Shown one piece after another: positions 43,873 to 45,322 of a DNA stretch of 64,000 bases. A program made the position numbers and the translations under genes. The stretch comes from Levilactobacillus brevis (lineage in GTDB: Bacteria > Bacillota > Bacilli > Lactobacillales > Lactobacillaceae). The DNA is taken from NCBI GenBank assembly GCA_021383565.1, contig CP079699.1:2480001-2544000 (forward strand), read 5' to 3'. The first letter of the stretch is position 1; the number at the start of each line of letters is the position of its first letter. A model generated the notes under the pieces. The model ran no database searches and was not told where the DNA came from. It worked only from the letters and a program-made list of their open reading frames with translations.

Positions 43873-43894
43873 TCAATTGAAAAGAGTACCAGTT

Positions 43895-43927
43895 AAGCGG
43901 TTCGGGAGAAATTCCGGCCGCTTTTTT
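43895..43927 (+). terminator. Terminator downstream of MFS gene
   Basis: AAGCGG / CCGCTT stem with an inner CGG/CCG and six T. Confidence 0.75.
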
Positions 43928-43963
43928 GGGTTCGAATTTTGGACCACGGGTGAAAATTGGCCG

Positions 43964-44265
43964 AAAAAAACAGCCAGACAAAGTCTAGCTGTCCCCCCAA
44001 AAGCCTCCGATGGCCGTTTCTGTTTGTGATTCCGCACAATATCGTGGCTGACTTCCCCCAAAGTTCAGTCGCGGGTCGAGCGCTCCCCCAAGCGGTCGAC
44101 CAGATTGTGCGGGCATCTGATTGGTCAGAATTCATCGGATTATGGATTCGACCGTTACCCCCCAGTAGCGGTGAATCCCACAGTGCCGATAACTTTCCTG
44201 AGATTATCAGTGGTTGGTGATAAGGATCATGTCCACTTACGGTGGTGCTCCTTATCGGATGATAC
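43964..44265 (-). ncRNA. Candidate structured small RNA with G-run hairpin loops
   Basis: On the minus strand a TATAAT (44272-44277) is followed by about 300 nt without a good ORF and then a terminator (ACAGCTAGAC / GTCTGGCTGT plus seven T at 43964-43992). In between are strong hairpins: GATAAGGA/TCCTTATC (44219-44257), GGATTC-ACCG/CGGT-GAATCC (about 44145-44180), and a 9-bp helix CCGCACAAT/ATTGTGCGG (44032-44112) that encloses two more hairpins. Runs of five or six G fall in or next to loops at 43993, 44055, 44085 and 44158. It matches no RNA family that I can recall (not RNase P, tmRNA, SRP or 6S by motif). Confidence 0.55.
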
Positions 44266-44271
44266 AAGTAC

Positions 44272-44277
44272 ATTATA
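44272..44277 (-). promoter_or_regulatory. -10 box of candidate ncRNA
   Basis: TATAAT on the minus strand. No convincing -35 hexamer 16-18 bases upstream. Confidence 0.45.
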
Positions 44278-44461
44278 CCGGGGATTGAGCGCTTCGATAA
44301 TCCCGTAATTTAATAATTGCGTTACTTATTTTAACCACCTTGGTTGTTTACGTGGTATGCTATTGATACGAACGATTTAGGATAATTGGTCTACACGGGG
44401 GTAATGCGTAAGAATTCGGTTTCTTTTGGGAATTGTGGTTTGTAGAAATGGGGGAACAAAT

Positions 44462-45322
44462 ATGCCACAGCCGTATCATGAACGTTTAAACTTTACCATG
44501 CAGTTGCCATTGCGCGTGATTAGTCATGGGACGGGTGGTCCAAAATTGGTATTGCCACACTGGCACCAAGCTGTCGAATTGGCCTATCCGTATTGTGGAC
44601 ATCCAGGAACCGCCCATATTGGGAGCTCAAGCTTCGAGATGACCGCGGGCCACATCTATGTGATTAATTCCGAGGTGGTTCACAGCTACGAGACCTTGTT
44701 GGACGAAGACAATCAGATTATCACGTTGCTGATGCCTTCGGCTTGGCTGCGAAATGTCGTCGATAACGAACAATTGCCGATCTGGGGCCCGGTCGATCTG
44801 GACCTTCACGATGAGGCCTACCGAGGAATTGGCCAGGCCGTCGGGACGCTGGTGGACAATGCAATTCACGAACGGGATGGTCAGGCTGACTATCTCGCCA
44901 GCCTTGGTGCGGAATATCAATTGGTGGGTCAGATGTTAAAACAGTTGAAAGTTAATGGACAGGTCGATAATGATCAGCTCCCGTTGCCGGAACCCTTGCG
45001 CCAAGCCGTTAGTGAGATTCAGAAGAACTATGGTGAGCCGATGTCGATTGCCGATTTGGCAGGTAAACTGAACTATTCTAGCGTCTATTTTTCCCGGTAC
45101 TTTAAAGAATATATGGGCATCTCGCCCAAGGCTTATCTGGGTCAGATTCGGCTAGAACGGGCGACGGAATTGTTGATGACGTCGGATGATTCTATCCAGA
45201 CGATTGCCACCAAGACGGGCTTTCGGACCGAGAAGAACTTCTTCGTCACGTTTAAGCAGCATTTCCTGATGACGCCCAAGACCTATCGTGAACGTTACGC
45301 GGCCCAGCGAGCCTGGTCATAG
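44462..45322 (+). CDS. AraC-family transcriptional regulator
   Basis: About 286 residues from ATG 44462, with TGGGGGAAC upstream. The N-terminal half is a cupin-like sensor domain (LPHWHQAVELAYPY, GHIYVINSEVVHSYE). The C-terminal half holds the two AraC helix-turn-helix motifs (MSIADLAGKLNYSSVYFSRY and SIQTIATKTGFRTEKNFF). Such regulators commonly respond to sugars or other carbon sources, but no metabolic gene is adjacent, so the target is unknown. Confidence 0.9.
   Translation: MPQPYHERLNFTMQLPLRVISHGTGGPKLVLPHWHQAVELAYPYCGHPGTAHIGSSSFEMTAGHIYVINSEVVHSYETLLDEDNQIITLLMPSAWLRNVVDNEQLPIWGPVDLDLHDEAYRGIGQAVGTLVDNAIHERDGQADYLASLGAEYQLVGQMLKQLKVNGQVDNDQLPLPEPLRQAVSEIQKNYGEPMSIADLAGKLNYSSVYFSRYFKEYMGISPKAYLGQIRLERATELLMTSDDSIQTIATKTGFRTEKNFFVTFKQHFLMTPKTYRERYAAQRAWS

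Follow-up and report, generated by a model that had tools for sequence, protein, structure and literature searches.

The gap between an MFS gene and a divergent AraC-type gene in Levilactobacillus brevis raises the question of whether it encodes a structured RNA, from which strand, and what such an RNA could do. The window is the whole stretch of 64,000 nucleotides that was analysed (contig CP079699.1, positions 2,480,001 to 2,544,000). An earlier note on this DNA had placed an RNA with four G-runs between a TATAAT box and a terminator at 43964-44265. These coordinates are exact, and the TATAAT box, the four runs of 5-6 G, and the terminator with its T-tract are all present. The features of the predicted RNA, referred to here as the G-loop RNA, are listed below.

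43964..44265, minus strand: G-loop RNA, predicted transcript of about 302 nt, with the position of the -10 box used to estimate its 5' end
44272..44277, minus strand: -10 box TATAAT
44144..44179, minus strand: G-loop hairpin A, with GGGGGG at 44158-44163
44074..44101, minus strand: G-loop hairpin C, with GGGGG at 44085-44089 (the orthologous hairpin was used for the covariation test)
44047..44070, minus strand: G-loop hairpin D, with GGGGG at 44055-44059
44032..44112, minus strand: helix CCGCACAAT/ATTGTGCGG around hairpins C and D (arms 44032-44040 with 44104-44112)
43993..44015, minus strand: conserved 3' module GGCCAUCGGAGGCUUUUGGGGGG, including the fourth G-run (43993-43998)
43964..43992, minus strand: intrinsic terminator CAGCTAGAC-TTT-GTCTGGCTG, then a T-tract

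The G-runs are read on the minus strand at 44163-44158, 44089-44085, 44059-44055, and 43998-43993, and successive runs are separated by 25-68 nt. The last run is poorly exposed, with a predicted unpaired probability of 0.18. The many stable helices that had been described are borne out by the predicted fold, which has an energy of -114.1 kcal/mol (z -4.04) that none of 100 dinucleotide shuffles reached. The 9-bp helix is also present and encloses two hairpins as described, but it is lost beyond the nearest relatives (clade-specific, by eye), unlike the G-loop hairpins. A terminator-like hairpin followed by a T-run is located on the plus strand at 43893-43928 after the MFS gene, where it opposes the terminator of the RNA.

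Conservation of the G-loop RNA in Levilactobacillus

A BLAST search with the RNA gave a match in 30 of the 35 genus genomes at E<=0.1, where the weakest matches are at chance level and most matches consist of the promoter or terminator block. The divergent AraC gene, which was found in 35/35 genomes, was used as the anchor, and the region upstream of it was taken from each genome. In this region the G-loop RNA could be defined for every one of the 35 Levilactobacillus genomes searched. The mean length of the RNA is 323 nt, and the RNA of genome G004 is short (194 nt). A search for plasmid copies of the G-loop RNA found none. Beyond the genus, the regions upstream of three distant homologues of AraC (L077, L078, and L110) contain no array of G-runs.

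The window and 20 fetched loci gave no match to Rfam 15 at the gathering threshold; the earlier note, too, could name no family with this layout. The best match at a relaxed threshold (E<=10) is RefA5, which scores 18.8 bits where 91 would be needed for gathering. The 6S RNA was considered and rejected, as there is no Rfam match and the neighbours are the AraC and MFS genes, not rarA, which is described as the neighbour of 6S RNA (PMC8414754). A long RNA of L. salivarius, also considered, is presented as unique to that species in its description (PMC5643018).

Some genomes depart from the common arrangement. In G033, the start of the AraC gene is either broken or wrongly set. A mobile-element end seems to be inserted just before the terminator in G032 (L019, near 1846-1900), replacing it (by eye). 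The AraC leader is apparently several hundred bases longer in G002, G006, G008, and G013 (L007, L008, L011, and L012), which would put the promoter of the G-loop RNA in this clade about 600 nt from AraC.

G-run loops and covariation of their hairpins

The 35 RNAs contain 162 runs of at least four G (G4+), with 3-6 runs per RNA. The observed number of G-runs per RNA is 4.63 against 2.65 in dinucleotide shuffles, and the number of predicted hairpin loops that contain GGG is 2.57 per RNA against 0.24 (40 shuffles each). Taken one by one, not all RNAs have a significant excess of G-runs or of G-loops: the loop excess was equalled in 14/40 shuffles for G004 and in 8/40 for both G026 and G008. The predicted folds of the related genomes G002, G006, G008, and G013 show just 1-2 G-loops. 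Bases in the G-runs have a predicted unpaired probability of 0.54, compared with 0.18 for G outside the runs and 0.34 for the remaining bases.

The hairpin loops stay UUGGGGGA-like while their stems differ between species yet remain complementary. The usual core is U-GGGGG-A, where the preceding U is found in 123 and the following A in 122 of 156 units; these flanking bases may be partly structural. The sequence TTGGGGGA is present in 34/35 RNAs. Conservation also extends to a start that resembles GUAACAUCCGGAUGGG, a linker that resembles UUUCCAAC, and a 3' module, GGCCAUCGGAGGCUUUGGGGGA, that precedes the terminator and that lacks its G-run in G017, G018, and G023. A second conserved hairpin with the loop GCCGUAAC is seen, along with the linker, in L021, L022, L017, and L008 and occurs in many species; its stems seemingly covary, as judged by eye.

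A single MAFFT alignment of all 35 RNAs allowed RNAalifold to find 4 pairs. Since the stems diverge, an alignment of the whole RNA is useless for structure, and tests anchored on the loops were used. The first of these swapped the arms among the 156 G-run units. Fully paired 8-bp arms were found in 20.5% of the units against 0.9% after swapping, and the mean number of pairs was 6.32 against 5.21 (sd 0.06, 200 permutations). The second was carried out on hairpin C, which can be aligned without gaps in the 27 of 35 genomes that have exactly five G in the loop (24 distinct rows). Its covariation score is 0.907 against 0.206 when shuffled (0/500 as high), and slid registers reached at most 0.223. 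In the same hairpin 83.8% of cells pair compared with 45.1% when shuffled, and 102 cells are altered on both sides compared with 33. Compensatory changes were also found among the six nearest genomes, in 10 of 49 predicted pairs. The proposal of a new structured RNA with G-runs in its loops is thus upheld both by the lack of an Rfam match and by strong covariation among relatives.

Strand of the RNA

The strand had been chosen from the promoter and terminator. In the copies read from relatives, both signals are located on the minus strand, with the exception of G032; these promoter-like starts and terminators were judged by eye from the sequence. Most relatives have TATAAT or TACAAT as the -10 box. 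The terminators at L016 and L017 are fully changed in sequence and are still terminators on the minus strand. Comparison of L021 with L022 shows a terminator with a GGGG loop and compensatory stem changes on the same strand.

The fold does not set the strand, since the complementary strand, compared with its own shuffles, does no worse (z -4.90, 0/100), as is usual for complementary strands. A generic scan of the gap found no sigma-70 promoter and did not list the minus-strand terminator. The -35 sequence is poor, and we think that the scan draws the T-tract into the terminator stem by counting G-T pairs. Taken from the sequence signals, the minus strand looks right.

The RNA strand is almost free of runs of at least four C, with 4 in the 35 RNAs against 162 such runs of G. 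The suggestion that the opposite strand could present C-rich loops to ribosome binding sites found no support, and a separate C-rich RNA that fits this role is encoded elsewhere.

A conserved C-rich sRNA as candidate partner

Candidate partners were searched in the genome of the window with the pattern TCCCC N12-42 TTTTTT, which describes C-runs just 5' of T-runs. The pattern is not enriched (46 sites against 55 for the reversed control) and so says nothing by itself; conservation serves as the independent test. About a dozen candidates were read, and the one chosen has a promoter, a terminator, and two C-boxes. It lies outside the window.

G000:C1:2428332-2428479 (L142:934-1086), minus strand: C-rich sRNA, unannotated, about 145 nt

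The gene lies past the 3' end of a convergent DegV-family gene and has the -35/-10 pair TTGCAC-17-TACACT. The C-rich sRNA was detected in 33/35 genus genomes at E<=2e-16. The two other genomes both carry the G-loop RNA; G007 (72% complete) gave a chance-level match to the C-rich sRNA and G008 (100% complete) gave none. The C-boxes were read in 30 aligned copies and in G018, where both boxes are present, while G017 and G023 were left out. The loop of box 1, GCACUCCCCCAAAGU, is identical in all 30 aligned copies, and box 2 (C5-6 then UCAA) is nearly identical in them. Both boxes are predicted to be exposed, with unpaired probabilities of 0.99 for box 1 and 0.96 for box 2 compared with 0.41 for other C. 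The helices of the sRNA have 99.9% of cells paired and 5 pairs changed on both sides (29 of 30 copies, 24 distinct rows), where the structure was derived from the same alignment.

A covariance model of the C-rich sRNA was searched against a family-wide sample of 397 genomes and recovered the sRNA from 24 of the 25 listed members of the genus. Outside the genus, this sample gave no convincing match, and two weak matches share the terminator alone (by eye). Nine loci of the sRNA gave no Rfam match at the gathering threshold, and a search at E<=10 gave chance-level matches only. The C-rich sRNA is itself a candidate for a new RNA family. RsaE (RF01820) was tried as a partner and rejected, as 0/34 genus genomes exceed its cut-off. 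Sub-threshold matches to RsaE at E<=1 occur in 13/34 genomes, the best with 29.8 bits against 79, and five loci that were examined are unconvincing.

Box 1 is perfectly complementary to the G-loop RNA of the same genome over a longest stretch of 8-11 nt, with a mean of 10.17 over 30 genomes. When the flanks of the C-run of box 1 were shuffled, the mean was 6.88, and 1 of 5000 shuffles reached the observed value. In the window, ACUUUGGGGGA of hairpin D is an 11-nt perfect complement of the loop of the C-rich sRNA. Box 2 shows no extended complementarity by this measure (6.87 against 6.92). The short RNA of G004, however, matches box 2 together with the terminator arm next to it over 13 nt.

Shared promoter element and the AraC-type regulator

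The promoters of both RNAs have a sequence element in common upstream of the -10 box, and the neighbouring gene encodes a regulator.

44314..44333 (also L206), minus strand: 20-bp upstream element with the consensus TAAATTTANNAANCCAATCA, common to the promoter of the C-rich sRNA
44462..45322, plus strand: divergent AraC-type regulator (HTH_18, AraC_binding), candidate regulator of the G-loop RNA

On the same strand, the aligned promoter regions of both RNAs have TAAATTTA..AA.CCAATCA in common. When the regions were compared at a width of 20, 0/200 column permutations were as good. At widths of 16 and 24 the best alignment differs, and 29/200 and 11/200 permutations respectively were as good. 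The significance of the shared element depends on the width chosen and is reached at width 20 alone. The position of the element is constant in each family: the best match lies 36 bp from the -10 box in 35/35 G-loop promoters and 24-25 bp from it in 29/29 C-rich promoters. The copy in the window is degenerate, with 4 mismatches; among the G-loop copies, 14/35 have at least 3 mismatches and 10/35 are exact.

Exact matches in 34 whole genomes are all located at these promoters (28/28, of which 18 C-rich and 10 G-loop). Since these same sites gave rise to the pattern, what the exact matches mainly speak against is a large regulon of exact sites. With up to 2 mismatches, 122 matches were found in the same genomes compared with 32 for the reversed element. 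By our count, 46 of the 122 are at one of the two promoters, so the remaining near-matches also exceed the control. The two recurrent near-matches that were read (L210 and L226) lie within a long reading frame, and the one at L202 lies within a reading frame too.

Because of its position, the AraC-type protein is the obvious candidate to bind the element. The -35 sequence of the G-loop RNA is poor (TTATCG, spacing 17 bp), and this would be compatible with an activator-dependent promoter. Divergent pairs of a regulator and an sRNA have precedents in SgrR/SgrS and OxyR/OxyS. The protein is 92-95% identical to its orthologues in L. tujiorum, L. hammesii, L. fuyuanensis, L. parabrevis, and Lactobacillus sp. 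HBUAS51381, and 72% identical to the orthologue in L. brevis CD0817. The AraC gene has an in-frame stop in L069 (G018), is split over two frames in L073 (G020), and gives a partial match in L074 (G033).

Proposed function and alternative explanations

We consider it probable that the G-loop RNA is a sponge, similar to RosA and RsaI, that titrates a C-rich sRNA directed at Shine-Dalgarno sequences, perhaps under the control of the adjacent AraC-type regulator. RosA of Bacillus subtilis is described as a stand-alone sRNA of 225-229 nt whose G-rich regions include the single-stranded GRR1 and GRR2; it titrates the C-rich sRNAs RoxS and FsrA, is without a C-rich region of its own, and is controlled by CcpA (PMC8216469). 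RsaI (RsaOG) of Staphylococcus is described as a stand-alone RNA with two G-rich regions that binds RsaG, RsaD, and RsaE (PMC9266662, PMC8216469).

Going by these descriptions, the G-loop RNA is like RosA in being stand-alone, with G-rich regions and no C-rich region, and like RsaI in being stand-alone, with G-rich regions that face a C-rich sRNA and with conservation within one genus. Three features expected of an RNA of this type were found. A stand-alone gene is seen in the sequence by eye, with the terminator apparently lost in G032; the G-rich regions are predicted to be accessible (0.54 unpaired, and the arm-swap test); and a complementary C-rich sRNA is present in 33/35 genomes, with the 8-11 nt match in the 30 aligned. 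There are also differences. RosA has three G-rich regions as described, whereas the G-loop RNA has 3-6 G-runs that lie mostly in tight covarying hairpin loops, and the partners of RosA are RoxS and FsrA, unlike the candidate partner here. RsaI is described as repressed by CcpA and, unlike the G-loop RNA, with a C-rich region that acts on mRNAs, and its description (PMC9266662, PMC8216469) offers no counterpart to the covarying multi-hairpin display. The C-rich sRNA resembles RsaE/RoxS (RF01820) as described, being a short sRNA with C-rich regions that face Shine-Dalgarno sequences, but it differs from that family by the absence of genomes above the RF01820 cut-off (0/34) and of any Rfam match at its loci. 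CrfA of Caulobacter, from another phylum, is described as an sRNA sponge that acts on SisA-D in an RNA network associated with Hfq (PMC12559287), and the likeness by description is that of a sponge acting on an sRNA.

The proposed mechanism is as follows. The C-rich sRNA would block GGGGG ribosome binding sites. The G-loop RNA, once transcribed, would display several copies of the Shine-Dalgarno-like UUGGGGGA in its hairpin loops and so mimic those sites. We infer that in cells the G-loops pair with the C-rich sRNA at its invariant loop GCACUCCCCCAAAGU, in part through loop-loop contacts. This pairing would keep the C-rich sRNA off ribosome binding sites with GGGGG, among them the one of the divergent AraC gene. 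Both RNAs would be controlled by a regulator that binds the shared 20-bp element, most simply the AraC protein, and the circuit would feed back if translation of AraC is a target of the C-rich sRNA. The fuller version, in which the two RNAs, encoded at unlinked loci, form a genus-specific switch with a private operator, AraC as an sRNA target, and double-negative feedback through loop-loop kissing, is put forward tentatively and is clearly the less probable one.

The layout of many hairpins that repeat one purine loop motif resembles that of CsrB and RsmZ, and the repeated G-loops could instead sequester an RNA-binding protein. This protein sponge appears unlikely, as CsrA, the one such protein searched for, was found in 0/35 genus genomes (in a search whose control was positive in 3/14 known genomes) and a conserved complementary C-rich sRNA exists. 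It is equally doubtful that the G-loop RNA acts directly on mRNAs with C-rich leaders, as RsaI does for some of its targets, with sponging as a minor role. The G-loops are able to pair with any accessible C5 stretch, and RsaI is described with both roles; on the other hand, box 1 of the C-rich sRNA is matched by the bases on either side of the G-runs, and the promoter element is common to both genes.

There is very little probability that the conserved region is a leader, a small ORF, or a DNA element of the AraC or MFS genes rather than a free RNA. The region does lie between these genes in the window, and a short frame (ATG GCC ATC GGA GGC) is present at the 3' module near the 3' end in many relatives. 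This frame was rejected as a small ORF since a single-base indel breaks it between the close relatives G012 and G015. Furthermore, a terminator closes the RNA sequence, the gene on its 3' side varies among some genomes (by eye), and the covariation sits in RNA hairpins. Least probable of all is an RNA G-quadruplex with a structural or sensing role, since most of the 3-6 G4+ runs per RNA are flanked by their own pairing stem and the spacing of 25-68 nt in the window is long for quadruplex loops.

RosA and RsaI already represent the functional class, a G-rich sponge of C-rich sRNAs. This case is distinguished by its display of several covarying hairpin loops, its AraC-type neighbour, and a promoter element common to both RNAs, and no description of this RNA pair was found in open PubMed Central text among the matches listed. 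If the sponge reading is true, it joins RosA and RsaI as another G-rich sponge in Firmicutes that faces a C-rich sRNA, in a lineage for which those matches showed no such pair, and the comparative data from 35 species make a repeated origin of such sponges testable. The shared promoter element suggests joint control of sponge and target. Levilactobacillus, including L. brevis, would gain a candidate Shine-Dalgarno-targeting sRNA together with its candidate antagonist.

Candidate targets of the C-rich sRNA

In the genome of the window, the motif TGGGGGA with an ATG 2-10 nt behind it was counted 54 times, compared with 8 times for the reversed pattern. With this excess, TGGGGGA looks like a Shine-Dalgarno type that is in use and that box 1 could cover. 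Among 20 sites chosen from the 54, 12 start a frame of at least 60 codons. The AraC gene has a possible target site of its own.

44450..44454, plus strand: GGGGG in the Shine-Dalgarno position of the AraC gene, to which the C-rich sRNA could pair

The GGGGG is found in the AraC leader of 23/35 genomes and is absent in 12/35 (G033 is not interpretable). Another possible target is L240 (G000:C1:1077820-1078596), which encodes a small-alarmone-synthetase-like protein (by eye) and has TTGGGGGA as its Shine-Dalgarno sequence.
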